IMG/VR virus record: IMGVR_UViG_3300030061_002128
Coordinates: 1-24,567 of that record
Origin: a virus
Length of the DNA stretch: 24,567 nt
Direction: 5' to 3' (one strand)
Positions 3,573 through 12,503 of this stretch are shown piece after piece. Position 1 is the stretch's first letter, and the number at the start of each line of letters is the position of its first letter. Below the pieces are notes generated by a model. The model ran no database searches and was not told the origin of the DNA. It worked only from the letters and a program-made list of their open reading frames with translations. A program made the translations under genes and the position numbers.

Positions 3573-6500
3573 TTATCTTCTTTTTTTTGATCTTGATCTT
3601 GATCTTGATTTACTTTTCTTTTTTGGTTTGTCTTTTTGCCACTCTAACTCCCATTTAGCCCAACCTAAAGCGTTTGCAATTCTCATCCACTCTTCATTTT
3701 CAGCATCAGAAGCATCTTTTAAGTTTGTTAATTTTCTTATACCTCTATCAAGTGGTACATTTGTAGCAGCACTAATAACTTGGCCAGCAGCTAAATAAGC
3801 GGGGTTATCTAATGACCAACCTTTTTCCATTATTTCTTTTTTATTCCAATCCCATGTTCTACCAGCAGATTTTAGTTTACCTATTTTAGAAGATATAGGA
3901 GGTGAAATATCTAATAATTCTATTGCAGCATCTTGAGCTTCTTTACCTTCAGCTAATTTCATTATAGCGTTTTTAAGTGTAGACACAGCTGCACCGTGAA
4001 AACCAATACCTCTTAATAGTGAATCAGCCATACCGTTTGCTATACCCGTATATTTTTTATTTAGTTTTTCCTCATCAGGTTCTTCATCTCCAAATGCCAT
4101 AGCAAATAAAGCTTGTTGTAACGCGTTAAATATAACATTTTGTATAGCTCCGTAATATAATATCTTAGATATATTAGTTTTGTCGTCCCCTCGGCGATTC
4201 TTAAGATCACTAGCGGCTTTTTGCATCAATCTAGCATATTGGGCTGGGGTATTTGCAAAAGCTAATATAATACGTCCCATTGGACCCGCTTGCTGTTGGC
4301 TAATTCTATCAGGTCTACTTGACTGTTGTGACTCTTCAGCTATTTCTCTAAAATCTTGAAATGCTTGTGCTTCAGCTTCTTTATCAGATAAACCTTCTTT
4401 CTTTAAACTTTTATATCTATTTCTATAAAACGTAGCGCCACCTGAAGCAATAGCAAAACTATCTGCTATTTGTGTAGGTAAAAAACCTAGTTTTAATATT
4501 TTACTTATAAAAGCTTTAGCTTTGTTTTTAGACTCAGCAGCAATTTCAGCAATATCAGCCTCACTCACGTTTATTTTTAAACCATTACGTCTTTCAACTA
4601 AGTAATCAGAGTTCATAAGTTTCATTACATCTTTCCAATACTGAGGTTGGTTTGCAAACGCAGCTGATGCTTTTAATGGGTTGTTATCAGACCAGTTCAC
4701 AAAGTTAACAGCTGATATAGTTTGTAAGACAGCAGATCTCATGTTAAAGAACATAATTGCTCCGACTGAATTATTTATCCAATCAATAAATCTACCAGTT
4801 AATGTGTCACCTTTAAAACCTCTATTGGTACCAGTTTTCATACGACCAAGCATGTTTTCTAAAGCCTCTCTGTAACCTTTACCATAAGCTGCTTCAAGCT
4901 TATTCATATTAGTTTCACTAAACACTTCATTTACATTATTTTGCCATTGTTTTAAATACTTAGCTCTAACAACAGTATTTAAACCTGATAATAAATCAGT
5001 TGTAATAGTACCAGCTAACCAACCTTCAGTAGGCTTAGGGTAACCATTATCTTTATTTATAGCTATAAGCTCATTAGCAAATGTAATTAAATTTTCATCT
5101 GCAGTTACGTAATCTTCTAATATTTTTTGATCAGCTTTAGATAAACCTGGAATAGTCATACCTTGTTGTGACCATGTGTAAACTCTAACAGCATTACCTA
5201 CAGTGTAAGGTTCACCAGTTATTTTTTTATTTAAGTCCTTAGGACTAACGCCTAACAAATTTTTTAAAGCTTTAAAATCATTAGCTAAAGCAACTCTTGC
5301 ATTTGATATATCTATATTAGCTCTAGCAAATGGATCTAAAAAGTTTTCTTTTACCCAAGCTATAGTTTCATCACCTTTTTTACCTTTACCAGCAAAGTAT
5401 CTAGTTAAACCTACAAAGTCTTGAGCTGATGGTGGTATACCTAATAAATCAAACCTACCTTTGTCTGCACCTACAGCTCTAGCTTTAGTTCTACCATATC
5501 TTTTTTCTGTACCAATACCTGTTGCTCTTTCTAATATATCATTAAAATCTTTGTTAAGATTTTTTGATTTACTAAACTTAATTCTAGCTTCTTGAGCTTC
5601 AGTATCTAAACGCTCCATATCATTAAGAACATTTTGATTTGTTTCTGGTTTAGAGTATTTTATGTTTTTAGGTAAAATATTTTTATTAAAAGTATTTATA
5701 TCTTTTTGATTTTTTTCAAATTCTTTTACAGATTTTTTTCCAATTTTAGAAACTATATCTTCATACAGTGTTTTAGTAAAATCACTTTTTATACTATAAA
5801 TATTTTTTGCTAATTCTAAATTTTCAGCAAATCTAAATATATTAGAATCGTTTACCTTACCTGTAGCATCGTCTATAATATTAAAATCATTTAAAAATCC
5901 CCAAATACCATTATAAGCTTTTAAATTTTGTTTACCTTGTTTTTTCCAATTACCTTGTAAAACTAAAACAGCTGATTCAAAAGATTGTTGACTACTTGAT
6001 TTTAAGTGTTCAAACTTAATTGTTCCTTCTTTAATAATACCCGGTAAAAAAACATAACCCGCTGGAGCTAATATTCTTTCACCACTAGTACCTATAGCTG
6101 CATTAGCTTTTTTAAGCTTAAGAATATAATCTGCTTTTTTATTAAAATCTTTACTACCTTGTTCGCTAGAATACAACCATTCTTGCATTGTAGTGTTCCA
6201 CAAATCGTATAACTCTAAAGAAGCTTTACCTTGTTTATTGTTAAATGTTTCTCTAGCTATTTTTATTTGTTCTTTTAAATTATTAGCTTTGTATATTTTA
6301 TTTAATGCTGTTTTAAATTTTGAAGCATAAGAAGTTTCTAAATTTTCCCATTTAAAGTTTTTCCATCTATCTAAAGTTTCTTTTGATAAAACACTTTTGG
6401 TTTTAGTATTTAAATTATTAATAATTCCTTGTTTAAAAGAGCTTCCAACTTTTGCCATTTCAGAACCTACAATATTATAATGCCCTGCAAATAAACCTAA

Positions 6501-9500
6501 TATTACTTTTTGATATTTATCTTTTACGTTATTAAGTATAGGTACTTGAGAAGATAAATCTTGTGCTTGATCATTAAATTCTTTGATTGCTTTTTTATCT
6601 TCTTTAAATTTAGCATCAGATAAAGTCCAATTACCTTGTTTTAAATCTTCATTTAATTCAGAATTTTTTATAGCTTTAGTATATTGTTGAGCTCCTTTTC
6701 CTTTATCTGCTTCAGCTATAGCTGCTTTAGCAACAAAGTCTTCTACTAAATCAAGCTCTTCTTTATTCATAGAAGCTTTATTTCTTTCGTATTTTTCTAA
6801 AGCCTGAAGCAACTTCATAGGTTCTTCATTAATTTCAACTTGTTTTTGTGATTTACTAAACTTTAAACCAACAGGTCTTTTAATTGCTTTAGAAACTTTT
6901 TCAGTGGTTTGTGTTTTGTCTACAAACTCTCTTTTTTCTATAACCTCTGGTTTTTGTATAGTTTCCATCGTAGCATCAAAAGCAAACTCTTCTGCTAATG
7001 CTTCGGCTAATGCATCTTTTCTAGTACCTTTAGTAGATGTGCCAACATCTCTACCTAAAAAGTATTTTATAAATTCTGCTTTAGTAATATCTTTTTTCTT
7101 AAATATTTTCTTACCTTCTTTAGTCTGTTCTCTTTTACCAGTATCCTCTGCAAACGGTCTAAATCTTTTATTTATAATATCTTGAGGTATAGCTTCGTAA
7201 ATATTTTCAAAGTTATCTCTTAAAAAAGTTTCATAAGCTGCTCTTGATCCTAAAACATCTTTAGCAATAGTTGTTTTAAGTTCTGTTCTAAATGCTTTTT
7301 GTAAAGCTTTTTTAAACTTAGGTGAGTCTACAGGTGGTAGTTTTGTACCAAATGTTTTTACCACAGCATCAATTACTTTTTGTGTAGTAGCTTTATCTAG
7401 TTTTATTTTTTTTCTTAAACTTTCTTTTGCTTTAGTTGGTTTTTCCGCAACCCTTTCTGTAACTTCTTCAGTTGTTATATCTAATGTTTCTGGAGTTGTT
7501 CTATCATCTATTTCTTTAGTAAACAAATCTCCTTCTTGACCTAACCTTCTTAATATATTACCTAATCTACCACCACCAAATTTACCTCCACCAAATAAAC
7601 CTTCTCTAATGTAAGCCCCATACTCTCCTTTACTAGGATCATAAGTTTTGTTTAAGTAAACTAAAACCTCTTCTTGAACACCAGATTTAAATTCATCTTT
7701 AGTTATACCTAATCCACTTTTAAATTTAGAATTAACAAAGTCGTTTACAATACCTTCATTATTTAAAGCTAAATCATTTTTAATATCTACAGCTTCTTGT
7801 GCTGTAGCGGTTTTTAATTGTTCAGATAATCGTTTGTTTTCAGCTACAATAGTTTTAGATAACTTAGTTTTTACCTCACCAGCTTGTTTTACTTCAGTTA
7901 ATCTTTCAGCTCTTTCTGTTAATTTACCTTTAGCTAGTTCTCTTTGATATTCTTTCAAAAAATTATAAACATCTTTACCATCTTTAAAACTTGCTTTAGT
8001 AAATCCTTTTGGTCTAAATATTTTTAAAATAGGTTCTGCTAATTTTTCAAATAATGTTTTTTCATAACTTATTTCACCAGATCTTAATGCATCTGAGAAA
8101 GCGGTTAAATACTCTTCATTATATTCACTTTCACTTTTTTCAGTACCGTCCTCGTTAAATCTATAATTATCATCTATTCTTTTTTGAACAATATTTAGTT
8201 CTTTTTGAGACAGTTGATCTTTAAAATTATCTACTATTTCTTTTCTTCTAACAGGATCAGATAAATCATTTCTAATTATACGATGTAATAGTTCATGAGA
8301 TCCAACTCCTATAGCTCCAACTTCAACAGCTCTATCTTTGTTTATAAGTACTTGTCCATCAGGTGTGATAAAACCTTCAGATAATAACGCTTCGTTTTTT
8401 TCTTGTTCTGAAAATTCTAATTCTTCTATTCTAGTTTTAAACTGTTCACTGTTTAATACCTCAGGTGTATAACCAAGTTTTTCACCTACTTTTTTAGCTG
8501 TCTCAATATCTTTTGTTACTTGCTCTACGTTAATATTTTTCTTTATTAATTGTATGTCTGTATCTATTTTTTTAGCCTGATTATTTATACTTCTTATAGC
8601 ATAACCATATTCTTTATTACTTAAATCACCATTTTGATTACTTTTTCTAAGATCTATAGCATCATTATAAAGTTTATCTTTTTTATCAATTAAACCTATT
8701 AATTCAGATCTTTGTTCTTCGGTTAAAAAAGTAGATAATTTTTGGTTAGTTTCTAAATATGTTTTTAATTTTGATTGAGTATTCTGTATTTCTTCTTCAA
8801 TTAAAGCTTTTACTCTTTTATCTTTAGTTCCATTTTTCTGTAAAGTTAAAGCATGCATCCTGTTTATAGAACTATTAACTATGTTGACACCATTAGAGTC
8901 ATTTCGTAAAGCTCTTAAAGCTTTATTACCTCCTCCACCAACAACCGCACTACCAACTACACCAGATAAAAACGCGTCAATACCTTCATCTGAAGCCATA
9001 GAATTAATACCTGTAGTTATCGCATCCTCTACGTTAAATCCTTCAGCTAAACTTTTGTTAACTGTTTCTAAACCAAATTGAACTTGTTCTTGCCAACCAT
9101 TTACACTAACGTTTACAGCTGTATTAGCTAAACCTCTATAGTTCCAAGCTTGTCTAGAAATTATTTTACCTATATTTTTTAAACCAAAATATTCAGCGGC
9201 TACAGCAAATGAAGATAATATTGCCGGTGTTATTAAGTCTATCTGTTCATTATTTTGAAGCTGATCTAAAGCATCGTCAACATCACCATATAAAGCTTTA
9301 GCTTTTTCAACATTATAATCAGTAATCATTGGCGCTGATATTTGTGGAGCTAAACTTATACCTCTTGTTAAAACGGCTGGTACCATAGTACTAATTACAC
9401 CTCCCACAGCGTTAAAAGAAGCACCAATTAAATCAGAAACATCACCTTCTTTAAAACCTTTTACAAAACCACCTCCTATATCTTTTTGTTCTTTTGCTAA

Positions 9501-10202
9501 TTGTTGTGATTTTTTTACCATGTTTATCCAAGCTTCATCTGCATAGCTACCAACTTCTTTTTTAGTATTAGAATAAATAGCTTTAGCTTTATCATCGCTT
9601 AGTTGTTTCCATTTTTCAGGATTATTTTTAAACAAAACTTCTTCGTTTGTTTCTGGGTCTATATAAGCTATTGCACCTGCACCAATAGATTCTCCTGTTA
9701 TAAAATCTGCAGCATCATCACCTGCAACCTCTTGAATAAATTTTAAACCCTGCGCTTTAATATCTTCCCAAGTACCTTTTAATTGTCCAGGTAAATTTTC
9801 TTTAACATTACTTATATTTTCTATTGATTGAATTATCTCGCTTTCACTTTTATCAGATTTAACTTCTTTTTCTAATTCATCTATGTAAGAAGTTAGATCA
9901 ACAACTTGAGTTTCTGTTAAAGGAGTTTGATCAGTTGTTACACCATCTTTATCTTTACTAAACCTTTTATTTATATTGTTTATCTTGCTTAAATCCAAAG
10001 AAATATCTCCCGATCCTAAGTCCGTACTCTGACCCGTTGCTATCTGTTCGTTTACTGCTGTTACGTCCGCAACATCCTCCGCAACAGCTTGTTTCTTTAC
10101 TATTCCAGTTTGTTGGATATATTCTTCTACAGTTAAATTAGATTCTTCTGCAGCTTTTTGTATTTCCTCTAAACTATATTCTTGACCATCAAGTTCGTAC
10201 AT
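3573..10202 (-). CDS. Giant multidomain internal virion/ejection protein with zincin-like motif
   Basis: A 2209-aa protein, the last of three internal-protein genes, placed where T7-like phages encode the large ejection protein gp16. Residues 1-35 (MYELDGQEYSLEEIQ...) form a compact helical head seen in other marine phage giants. A Gly/Ala-rich hydrophobic region covers about 240-430. HELLH at 636-640 (HExxH) with a downstream acidic pair E696-E697 (NEEYLTAF) suggests a zinc metalloprotease that could cut the cell wall or process virion proteins. About 810-920 resembles sigma-factor region 2 (YDPSKGEYGAY at 854-864). KFSK-type linkers lie at 80, 1114, 1515 and 1542. The C-terminal third has amphipathic helices, with hydrophobic stretches near 1810-1838 and 2015-2040, suited to forming a membrane channel. 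It ends in a basic Ser/Arg tail. The start is 7 nt after the previous stop. The ejection role is inferred from position, size and composition. Confidence 0.82.
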   Translation of the reverse strand: MYELDGQEYSLEEIQKAAEESNLTVEEYIQQTGIVKKQAVAEDVADVTAVNEQIATGQSTDLGSGDISLDLSKINNINKRFSKDKDGVTTDQTPLTETQVVDLTSYIDELEKEVKSDKSESEIIQSIENISNVKENLPGQLKGTWEDIKAQGLKFIQEVAGDDAADFITGESIGAGAIAYIDPETNEEVLFKNNPEKWKQLSDDKAKAIYSNTKKEVGSYADEAWINMVKKSQQLAKEQKDIGGGFVKGFKEGDVSDLIGASFNAVGGVISTMVPAVLTRGISLAPQISAPMITDYNVEKAKALYGDVDDALDQLQNNEQIDLITPAILSSFAVAAEYFGLKNIGKIISRQAWNYRGLANTAVNVSVNGWQEQVQFGLETVNKSLAEGFNVEDAITTGINSMASDEGIDAFLSGVVGSAVVGGGGNKALRALRNDSNGVNIVNSSINRMHALTLQKNGTKDKRVKALIEEEIQNTQSKLKTYLETNQKLSTFLTEEQRSELIGLIDKKDKLYNDAIDLRKSNQNGDLSNKEYGYAIRSINNQAKKIDTDIQLIKKNINVEQVTKDIETAKKVGEKLGYTPEVLNSEQFKTRIEELEFSEQEKNEALLSEGFITPDGQVLINKDRAVEVGAIGVGSHELLHRIIRNDLSDPVRRKEIVDNFKDQLSQKELNIVQKRIDDNYRFNEDGTEKSESEYNEEYLTAFSDALRSGEISYEKTLFEKLAEPILKIFRPKGFTKASFKDGKDVYNFLKEYQRELAKGKLTERAERLTEVKQAGEVKTKLSKTIVAENKRLSEQLKTATAQEAVDIKNDLALNNEGIVNDFVNSKFKSGLGITKDEFKSGVQEEVLVYLNKTYDPSKGEYGAYIREGLFGGGKFGGGRLGNILRRLGQEGDLFTKEIDDRTTPETLDITTEEVTERVAEKPTKAKESLRKKIKLDKATTQKVIDAVVKTFGTKLPPVDSPKFKKALQKAFRTELKTTIAKDVLGSRAAYETFLRDNFENIYEAIPQDIINKRFRPFAEDTGKREQTKEGKKIFKKKDITKAEFIKYFLGRDVGTSTKGTRKDALAEALAEEFAFDATMETIQKPEVIEKREFVDKTQTTEKVSKAIKRPVGLKFSKSQKQVEINEEPMKLLQALEKYERNKASMNKEELDLVEDFVAKAAIAEADKGKGAQQYTKAIKNSELNEDLKQGNWTLSDAKFKEDKKAIKEFNDQAQDLSSQVPILNNVKDKYQKVILGLFAGHYNIVGSEMAKVGSSFKQGIINNLNTKTKSVLSKETLDRWKNFKWENLETSYASKFKTALNKIYKANNLKEQIKIARETFNNKQGKASLELYDLWNTTMQEWLYSSEQGSKDFNKKADYILKLKKANAAIGTSGERILAPAGYVFLPGIIKEGTIKFEHLKSSSQQSFESAVLVLQGNWKKQGKQNLKAYNGIWGFLNDFNIIDDATGKVNDSNIFRFAENLELAKNIYSIKSDFTKTLYEDIVSKIGKKSVKEFEKNQKDINTFNKNILPKNIKYSKPETNQNVLNDMERLDTEAQEARIKFSKSKNLNKDFNDILERATGIGTEKRYGRTKARAVGADKGRFDLLGIPPSAQDFVGLTRYFAGKGKKGDETIAWVKENFLDPFARANIDISNARVALANDFKALKNLLGVSPKDLNKKITGEPYTVGNAVRVYTWSQQGMTIPGLSKADQKILEDYVTADENLITFANELIAINKDNGYPKPTEGWLAGTITTDLLSGLNTVVRAKYLKQWQNNVNEVFSETNMNKLEAAYGKGYREALENMLGRMKTGTNRGFKGDTLTGRFIDWINNSVGAIMFFNMRSAVLQTISAVNFVNWSDNNPLKASAAFANQPQYWKDVMKLMNSDYLVERRNGLKINVSEADIAEIAAESKNKAKAFISKILKLGFLPTQIADSFAIASGGATFYRNRYKSLKKEGLSDKEAEAQAFQDFREIAEESQQSSRPDRISQQQAGPMGRIILAFANTPAQYARLMQKAASDLKNRRGDDKTNISKILYYGAIQNVIFNALQQALFAMAFGDEEPDEEKLNKKYTGIANGMADSLLRGIGFHGAAVSTLKNAIMKLAEGKEAQDAAIELLDISPPISSKIGKLKSAGRTWDWNKKEIMEKGWSLDNPAYLAAGQVISAATNVPLDRGIRKLTNLKDASDAENEEWMRIANALGWAKWELEWQKDKPKKKSKSRSRSRSKKRR
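3588..3608 (-). repeat. Hexamer repeat (AGATCA) encoding an SR-dipeptide tail
   Basis: A little more than three tandem copies of the hexamer AGATCA (read on the minus strand) code for alternating Ser and Arg just before the stop codon of the giant protein, between a lysine-rich stretch and KKRR. The in-frame 6-bp unit can expand or shrink without a frameshift. Confidence 0.85.
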
Positions 10203-10209
10203 AATTAGA

Positions 10210-11742
10210 TTATTTTTTAATTATAGGAAGTTTTTTCTTAGATTTTTTAGTTTTCTTTTCTATATATTTATCACTCATACTATCTACCAACGAAGGATAA
10301 ACTAATCTTATTGCTCTTCCTTTGTCATCTCCACCAGCAAGTTTGCTTACATTTAAAAGTTCTTGAAAAAATATACCTCTTTCCTGTTTATTATCCATGT
10401 TGTATCTTAAAGGTTCTTCTTCATTTCCTTCATTATCAAATTGAGGAATTGTAATTATAGAGCCTTCTACTAAAGTAGCTTTTTCTTCTGGTCCTTGTTT
10501 ATATCTATTGTAAGCACCTAATGGATCTCTCGCGAATTCGTTATATATTTTTACAGCGCTTTCTTCTGCTGATATGTCTTTATATTTACTAGAAGTACTA
10601 CCTGATGGTATAGTTGTTTTTCCAAACTTTTTTATTTCAAAAGCTCCAGGATTTTCTTGCACCCATTTTTTAGCTTTTGGATCATCAGAACTTATATAAT
10701 CAACATTAGGAATATAATTTCCAGCTCTTAGTTTAAGTCTTTCTGTAAATATTTTAGATTGTTCTGGGTCTATAGCACCACCTTTTACGATTTTTAAATC
10801 CTCTGCTTCACCTAAAACATTTCTCCAAACAGCATTAGCTGTTTTAGGATCTTTTAAATAACCTTGAGCTAATTTATCTACTCTATCATTTATAGCTAAA
10901 GCTGCCATTTCCCAATTAGGACCAACAATAACAGCTGTTATATCACCATTTTTACTTTTTTGTACTCTAGTTTGTTCAGAGTTTATGTCTTGATACTCTG
11001 AAGTTAATTTACCATTTTTATCTATAACACCACTTTCAACTAAAACATTTTCTAAAGTTTTATCTACAGTAGGAACTTTAGTAGTAGTATAGTTTGCAGC
11101 TTGAGTACCCCAAATAATAAATTCTTTATTATCAACACCTGTTTCTTTATCATCTAATTCTTTATATTTAGTTCCCCATCCTTTTTCTTTATCATAAATT
11201 ATTTCTTTAGATCCTTTTAAAAACCCAGTGTCTATCCATGTACCGATTTGAAACTCTTGGTTTTCTGTCATAGATGCATAACCTTGTTCACCTACGTTAA
11301 CAGGATTGTTACCTATTTCATTTAAATAATCTTGAGTTGACTCTCCTTTTGATTTTATATATGGTATTAAACCTTTTAAAGCTTTATTAGCTTCGTTGTA
11401 CTCTTTTTGAGCTTGAGCAAGTTCTTCTTGAGGTCTACCAGTTTGTAATAATTTAACAGAAGCGTTTGTTTTTAATGTTTGAAAAGTTTGAGCTTGATCA
11501 TATATTTGCTGATCATTAATATTAGCTTCACTTAAAGCACCAGAAAGAACATCATAATCTTTTACACCCTGTTCTTGTATTTTTTGAAGTCTAACAGCAA
11601 AGTTTTTATTTAACTCTAAAAGCCTATCTCTTTCGTCATCTAAAACTTTAGATGCTTGATTACCTAAGGTTTGTATTGCATTTGCCCAAATCTGACCGCT
11701 TTTAGTGTCGACTACTGTTACTGGATTTTCGTATGCTCCCAT
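10210..11742 (-). CDS. Internal virion protein, T7 gp15-like by position
   Basis: A 510-aa, mostly helical, soluble protein without signal peptide. The N-terminal third (residues 15-125) is charged and Gln-rich with heptad-like spacing (VLDDERDRLLELNKNFAVRLQKIQEQ). Residues 160-240 are mixed (GYASMTENQEFQIGTWIDTGF) and the C-terminus is basic (KKTKKSKKKLPIIKK). It sits between the 253-aa membrane-like protein and the giant protein, as gp15 sits between gp14 and gp16 in T7-like phages. It would form part of an ejected conduit for DNA. The ATG overlaps the stop of the upstream gene (TAATG at 11740-11744), so the two are translationally coupled. No motif proves the role; the assignment is by context and composition. 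Confidence 0.68.
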   Translation of the reverse strand: MGAYENPVTVVDTKSGQIWANAIQTLGNQASKVLDDERDRLLELNKNFAVRLQKIQEQGVKDYDVLSGALSEANINDQQIYDQAQTFQTLKTNASVKLLQTGRPQEELAQAQKEYNEANKALKGLIPYIKSKGESTQDYLNEIGNNPVNVGEQGYASMTENQEFQIGTWIDTGFLKGSKEIIYDKEKGWGTKYKELDDKETGVDNKEFIIWGTQAANYTTTKVPTVDKTLENVLVESGVIDKNGKLTSEYQDINSEQTRVQKSKNGDITAVIVGPNWEMAALAINDRVDKLAQGYLKDPKTANAVWRNVLGEAEDLKIVKGGAIDPEQSKIFTERLKLRAGNYIPNVDYISSDDPKAKKWVQENPGAFEIKKFGKTTIPSGSTSSKYKDISAEESAVKIYNEFARDPLGAYNRYKQGPEEKATLVEGSIITIPQFDNEGNEEEPLRYNMDNKQERGIFFQELLNVSKLAGGDDKGRAIRLVYPSLVDSMSDKYIEKKTKKSKKKLPIIKK

Positions 11743-12503
11743 TATCTTATATTATTTATTTTAGCTGCTTCAACTTGTCCTAAAGCTCCCATGTAGCTTC
11801 CTGCTATGTTTCCTAGAGCTCCAACTCCTCCTGCTATAATAGAAGCTTGGTTTTGTCTTGCAGCTACTTGAGCCTGTTGTTGACCTGTTATTTGTGCTTG
11901 AACTCTATTTAATTGCTCTGTCTCTCTTCTTTCTTTTTCACTATAAACAAAAGTTTTACCTTTAACATCTACATCTTGCATTCTTTGCGCTTCACCAAAT
12001 AAACCTGATTGTACTCTTTGTGCTTCAGCCATTTGTAATCTTTGTAAATTATCTTCACCTTGAGCTCTTAGTTTTTCATTTTGTGCTTCTTGCTGTTCTA
12101 TACTAGCACTTACACCTTTTTTACTTTGTAAAGCGGCTTGAGCTAAAGCGGTAGCTCCTCCAGCACTAGCACCTGTAGCTCTTAATGTGTCTAGTGTATT
12201 AGCTAAAGCAATATCAGCTTCTTCAATTTCTATTTCAGCGGCTTTAGTTGCAACACCTAAATTAGCATAAGGATTAGAAACCATACCGCTTAAATCCGTT
12301 ATCATACCTGATAAATCTGTTACACCAGCATATGGATTAATTATAGGTTGCCTTTTATTTTCTAAAGTTTTTAATTTGTCTTCTAAACGAGCTTTTTCTC
12401 TACCAGCTCTTTTAGCTTGCTTGCCTGCGCTTATAGCGCCTATAGCTGTAGCTCCAACTGTAGCCACACCACCAATAACTGCTGCTGTTACTATAAATGC
12501 CAT
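11742..12503 (-). CDS. Internal virion protein, T7 gp14-like (membrane-active ejection protein)
   Basis: A 253-aa protein with the layout typical of small podovirus ejection proteins. It has a Gly/Ala/Val-rich N-terminal helix (residues 3-26), a long Gln/Ala/Glu-rich helical middle (90-215) and a second Gly/Ala-rich segment (about 220-241, IIAGGVGALGNIAGSYMGALG). Such proteins leave the capsid first and insert into the host envelope as the outer part of the DNA channel. There is a short internal repeat at residues 61-74 (TDLSGM twice). It lies 3 nt after the cupin-like gene and shares one base with the following 510-aa gene. The family assignment is by composition and order, not by a diagnostic motif. 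Confidence 0.72.
   Translation of the reverse strand: MAFIVTAAVIGGVATVGATAIGAISAGKQAKRAGREKARLEDKLKTLENKRQPIINPYAGVTDLSGMITDLSGMVSNPYANLGVATKAAEIEIEEADIALANTLDTLRATGASAGGATALAQAALQSKKGVSASIEQQEAQNEKLRAQGEDNLQRLQMAEAQRVQSGLFGEAQRMQDVDVKGKTFVYSEKERRETEQLNRVQAQITGQQQAQVAARQNQASIIAGGVGALGNIAGSYMGALGQVEAAKINNIR

Follow-up and report, generated by a model that had tools for sequence, protein, structure and literature searches.

What divides the giant protein encoded in IMG/VR virus record IMGVR_UViG_3300030061_002128 into its parts, and what reads the dividing signal? The window, i.e. the whole stretch of 24,567 bases analysed here, contains a giant open reading frame (ORF; 3573-10202, minus strand) in which, as an initial annotation had noted, the short motif [KR][FY]SK recurs between regions of different character; the annotation suggested that these copies could be processing sites cut by the HELLH domain of the same protein. 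We suggest that the protein is probably a phage ejection polyprotein processed by its own embedded zincin, which would cut motif sites between cargo modules. In this model, the N-terminal part together with the C-terminal block (C-block) would form a scaffold bearing a series of cargo modules: one that is sigma-2-like, a hypervariable one with the EHxxP signature and, in many of the relatives, also a HAD phosphatase. Between these modules would lie short x-F-S-[K/R]-[S/T] sites, to be recognised and cut by the zincin, which is embedded ahead of the cargo, and the modules would be set free in the virion or after ejection.

The modules follow the order zincin, sigma-2-like domain, FSK, EHxxP cassette, FSK, optional HAD phosphatase, FSK and C-block. 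The features of the gene, with AlphaFold2 (AF2) confidence given as the predicted local distance difference test (pLDDT), are:

3573..10202, minus strand: gene for the giant virion/ejection-type protein of 2209 residues; it closes the structural block.
9954..9965, minus strand: RFSK, copy 1 (residues 80-83), probably incidental, in an N-terminal zone without enrichment.
7938..8507, minus strand: zincin-like metallopeptidase region (residues ~566-755) with HExxH and conserved residues; AF2 pLDDT mostly 66-90.
8283..8297, minus strand: HELLH catalytic motif (residues 636-640); HExxH is kept in nearly all of the family.
7854..7865, minus strand: KLSK (residues 780-783), a degenerate seam motif at the boundary of zincin and sigma-2-like domain, where relatives have LSK or ESK-type residues.
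7521..7862, minus strand: sigma-70 region 2-like helical domain (residues 781-894), proposed from comparison of an AF2 model with sigma factors; it contains YDPSKGEYGAYI.
6864..7505, minus strand: conserved block A (residues 900-1113), which ends at motif copy 2; 52-73% identity to relatives, with a sharp drop afterwards.
6852..6863, minus strand: KFSK, copy 2 (residues 1114-1117), the left edge of the cassette; among 17 sequences, F is invariant and S nearly invariant.
5688..6851, minus strand: exchangeable cassette with the EH motif (residues 1118-1505); ~20% identity to the nearest relative, L001, between near-identical flanks.
6078..6083, minus strand: EH residues of the cassette (residues 1374-1375); E815/H816 of A5 are nearly invariant.
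5649..5660, minus strand: KYSK, copy 3 (residues 1515-1518), bounding the cassette on the right; the equivalent position in relatives reads KFSK.
5568..5579, minus strand: KFSK, copy 4 (residues 1542-1545), where the C-block begins; its flanks are variable in the family.
3573..5555, minus strand: conserved C-block with a basic tail (residues 1550-2209); 75-92% identity to seven relatives.

The four annotated copies were confirmed as RFSK at residues 80-83, KFSKS at 1114-1118 (6849-6863), KYSKP at 1515-1519 (5646-5660) and KFSKS at 1542-1546 (5565-5579). Their frequency lies above that expected from composition: four were seen against 0.16 expected, and none of 5000 shuffles reached four, while KFSKS is present twice in the 2209 residues against 0.004 expected. 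The claim that the motif separates unlike regions held for copies 2, 3 and 4, based on comparison with relatives, and was not supported for copy 1, which is shared by L001 only, itself near-identical; lying outside the motif-rich zone, copy 1 is probably incidental. At residues 780-783 (7854-7865), at the seam between zincin and sigma-2-like domain, we found a weaker copy, KLSK, that the annotation had missed.

To what extent is this arrangement general? Annotated cultured phages contained no match to the whole giant protein, and tblastn searches of cultured phages with the whole protein, an EHAMP cassette, a C-block and a HAD domain returned only a weak match to the C-block, in phage Gundel_1. 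In scans of viral contigs, we first obtained 13 close relatives, then further ones through C-block and cassette queries, and a single profile scan gave at least 578 contigs encoding family candidates, 80 of which were taken further. The discovery set comprised 103 non-redundant giant proteins; another 118 non-redundant ones, taken from three later scans and dissimilar to the first set, made up the held-out set. Family-wide counts refer to 217 related giant proteins on uncultured viral contigs; the proteins are unannotated and 2-3.6 thousand residues long.

The relatives contained FSK 229 times, their shuffled versions 73 times; at least three copies were present in 46 of 97 proteins, where 3.6 proteins were expected. 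The copies are confined largely to the cargo region: per 1000 residues, the density of FS[KR] in the discovery set was 0.21 before the zincin, 0.11 in the zincin, 2.09 between zincin and C-block and 0.65 in the C-block, and the corresponding values in the held-out set were 0.36, 0.09, 1.86 and 0.37. The density in 581 neighbouring ORFs was 0.20. Within this region, the motif search that had been proposed for homologous giant proteins revealed enrichment at domain seams. Of 49 proteins, 20 had FS[KR] in the 45 residues preceding HAD (5% of random windows) and 23 in the 35-residue window past HAD, as opposed to one within HAD. Similarly, at the C-block seam of 80 family members, F was kept in 55, S in 68 and K/R in 62, with variable flanks.

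Because the studied protein was modelled poorly, we modelled L053, a relative with more homologues (mean pLDDT 78.5). In this model, the first FSK directly follows a low-confidence stretch (25-36) and the last (FSK1539) lies within another (581-587) at the junction of HAD and C-block. Accordingly, two of the three motifs are likely in linkers, and the third is at a helix end at a domain edge.

Is the motif read at the level of the protein? The motif serine is encoded by AGY in ~60% and by TCN in ~40% of cases; because both codon families are used, the constraint acts at the protein level. A DNA-level exchange signal was dropped as a candidate for the same mixing of serine codons. If the motif co-evolved with a single reader in each phage, the sites within a protein should agree. 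We observed such agreement at positions -1 (z 5.2), +2 (z 2.6) and +3 (z 4.7), no significant excess from -8 to -2, a weak one at +5 and +6, and none for the serine codon family (z 0.2). Domain-internal FSK were excluded from these tests (FSKENLN in the C-block, FDFSEFSK in HAD, and DPFSK). The held-out set also showed the agreement at -1 (z 1.9, p 0.027), +2 (z 2.3, p 0.022) and +3 (z 4.2, p 0.0025). One relative, L063, has switched every one of its six sites to FSE[TS]; FSE stands at four sites in L260, FSRS at five of the six in L279, and MFSR at four of the five in L093.

The zincin is a candidate for this reader. HExxH is present in 212 of the 217 family members, E78, H81 and E138 of A5 are invariant among 17 relatives, and three relatives have a weak match to SprT-like; judged by these residues, the domain is a zincin-like metallopeptidase of the type found in polyvalent proteins. 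In partial Mantel tests (n=118), the core residues of the motif tracked zincin similarity given the C-block (0.193, p 0.002) or given the N-terminus (0.180, p 0.002), while they tracked neither C-block nor N-terminus significantly given the zincin; control flanks followed the C-block and not the zincin. In the combined set, the tracking persisted upon dereplication of the zincins at 60, 45 and 35% (p 0.002-0.03). Thus, the link between motif and HELLH domain suggested by the annotation has statistical support, and cleavage by this domain would explain it.

Separately, we observed zincins without HExxH in L013 (EELFH at residue ~968), L136, L304 and L051. For L013, L136 and L304, processing in trans or recent loss is possible.

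Alternatively, the motif could be the processing site of another protease, of the host or an unrecognised phage enzyme, with the zincin being a cargo effector. L013, L136 and L304, which lack HExxH yet have sites, fit this explanation, and the available text of Iyer et al. 2017 (PMC5512222) allows some zincins to be effectors on host proteins. Among 16 contigs of 61-71 kb, which are possibly incomplete, no prohead protease of the S78 or ClpP type was detected in searches whose controls worked, and none of the S77 type in a search that had no positive control; a divergent prohead protease could also escape the three Pfam models used. We consider another protease unlikely because positions -1, +2 and +3 track zincin similarity given either the C-block or the N-terminus, and because no S78 or ClpP-type enzyme is found in these contigs.

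A second alternative is that the motif serves for docking or anchoring between modules, is read by a partner protein during packaging or threading, and is not cut. Ejection proteins need to be packed and threaded, and the covariation within proteins indicates no more than that the motif is read by some common factor. However, tracking of the zincin is not expected from a docking signal, and the N- and C-terminal scaffold, where one might expect packing contacts, shows no enrichment of sites; we therefore regard docking as still less likely than a second protease.

The motif also coincides with the edges of exchanged cassettes. Close relatives share 65-73% identity in the block ahead of the second motif, ~10% over the following ~370 residues and ~90% past the fourth. 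The studied protein and L001 share 96-100% identity on either side, before the second motif and past the fourth, against ~20% within the cassette, and at the DNA level the similarity is high through the AGTAAA of the motif and is lost from the next codon on. The two KFSKS copies have the 15-mer AAGTTTAGTAAATCA in common, as expected from their annotation as near-identical in DNA. These observations would fit a mere domain linker or a hot spot of cassette exchange with no reader at the protein level. By contrast, AGY and TCN codons are both used for the serine, the codon family is unmatched within proteins while the amino acids are matched, and a plain linker needs neither a fixed F-S-K nor covariation at -1 and +3, making this explanation improbable. 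Finally, origin by chance or composition, for which the lysine-rich nature of the protein (11% K) could speak, is refuted by the shuffles of the studied protein and its relatives and by replication in the held-out set, and can be set aside with near certainty.

Several points weigh against processing by the embedded zincin. Cutting of the sites is itself a prediction. Five of the 217 proteins have no HExxH, and at least the three named above still have motif sites; conversely, L080, L083, L094, L127 and L129 bear HExxH, but their cargo regions are devoid of FS[KR]. The correlations in the Mantel tests are low (r about 0.12-0.25), and after dereplication the held-out set taken by itself showed no significant effect (0.068, p 0.2). 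In the L053 model, FSR1361 ends a helix of fair confidence seven residues before the HAD core rather than lying in a floppy linker, and the AF2 model of the studied protein itself (residues 560-1621) is poor, with a mean pLDDT of 51.

With regard to the predicted cargo, residues 781-894 were modelled by AF2 as a helical domain of modest pLDDT, and sigma factors made up 48 of 50 among the matches listed (best Z 8.3, 6ca0_F). A sequence profile reached a sigma-K chain at E 0.47 only, and Pfam did not recognise the domain. Should this resemblance be genuine, the virion of the phage would contain a sigma-like domain. The EHxxP signature is invariant across a 45-sequence alignment of the relatives' cassettes; the domain is otherwise hypervariable, with E-H and P invariant and HxHK conserved in many members (e.g. 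L012:7029-8096). Comparison of the EHxxP region with PDB folds gave no confident match, and because HAD filled the second list of matches, the fold is not established as new. Possibly, this domain is an as yet unrecognised enzyme under rapid exchange. About 100 of the 217 relatives have a HAD module (e.g. L053:9042-9596); it is located between the third and fourth motif, and the next FS[KR] marks its end, ~165 residues past its DFD motif. Residues 397-579 of the L053 model matched T4 Pnkp phosphatase (Z 10.0, rmsd 2.5, 112 aligned), and as modelled the module has the HAD core fold with the DxD nucleophile motif. The studied protein has no HAD and only 27 residues between these motifs. With a zincin motif, a sigma-2-like fold and an exchangeable EH cassette, and HAD in relatives, the giant protein combines two or more distinct domains in one polypeptide, as polyvalent proteins do.

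In the window, the genes to the right of the giant gene match PHROGs for portal, scaffold-like protein, major capsid and tail proteins, and ribonucleotide reductase is to the left. It is the position after the tail genes that suggests transfer of the giant protein into the host at invasion. Between the tail genes and the giant gene, 10210-11742 and 11742-12503 encode two more proteins without a convincing family match, which are likely the remaining ejection proteins. Neither PHROGs nor Pfam yielded a convincing match to the giant protein or its cassettes; in Pfam, nothing scored above cut-off for the whole protein, the cassettes, the C-block or the zincin-containing region, and the C-block matched neither Pfam nor PDB entries. 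Related giant proteins are encoded on contigs binned to Bacteroidota genomes (L139, L142, L143, L145, L146, L148 and L151; a few other phyla also appear), suggesting Bacteroidota hosts. As a separate observation, giant proteins of the family have a cysteine motif such as GICSAISKSGNRCK, e.g. at the C-terminus of L048; the tripeptide RCK occurs 55 times in 39 of the proteins versus one expected.

That zincins process phage polyvalent proteins was proposed earlier, with an analogy drawn to RNA-virus polyproteins (Iyer et al. 2017, PMC5512222); we encountered no published cleavage site for such processing in the literature searched. The family described here resembles these proteins in being very large and multidomain with an embedded HExxH domain, for which autoproteolytic release of domains was proposed there. 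However, the available text of that paper describes no cleavage motif, while a recurrent, co-evolving seam motif is present here; the word 'sigma' is absent from its main text; and the present family is without a Pfam-recognised domain and has almost no cultured relative. P1 DarA and DdrB, which are internal head proteins, are reported as processed (PMC5512222; P1 record), and DdrB has an HELGH motif. Unlike in our family, FS[KR] is absent from P1 DarA, DdrB and DarB. The structural protein of Tenacibaculum phage Gundel_1 (QQV91510) is likewise giant, with an HEFGH motif and weak similarity to the C-block (28.9% over 115 residues), but instead of FS[KR] repeated at seams it has two scattered FSK (1071, 1418). 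The annotation's idea that FS-[RK] linkers characterise polyvalent phage proteins in general is thus not supported by P1 and Gundel_1. In SPN3US, the prohead protease gp245 cuts after AXE, mainly removing N-terminal propeptides (PMC10052503). There, too, a short repeated motif marks the processing of packaged head proteins; the protease is a separate one. In the present family, by contrast, the motif separates internal modules, and our searches turned up no protease of that kind. Our literature search returned no report of KFSK cleavage in phages. The concept of a zincin-processed phage polyprotein has been known since 2017, and for the putative cleavage motif, its co-evolution and this family we found no report in the literature searched.

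In a broader sense, we see about an even chance that widespread uncultured marine phages, represented by at least 578 candidate contigs, eject a true polyprotein, in which a zincin with co-evolving, phage-specific cut sites would free exchangeable effectors including a sigma-like domain, with cassettes swapping between the cut sites. A motif with within-protein covariation that also follows the protease leads to specific predictions, to be examined by mass spectrometry and in vitro cleavage. It also provides a rule for dividing proteins of 2-3.6 thousand residues into modules, among them the EHxxP domain and a possible virion-borne sigma-like domain.

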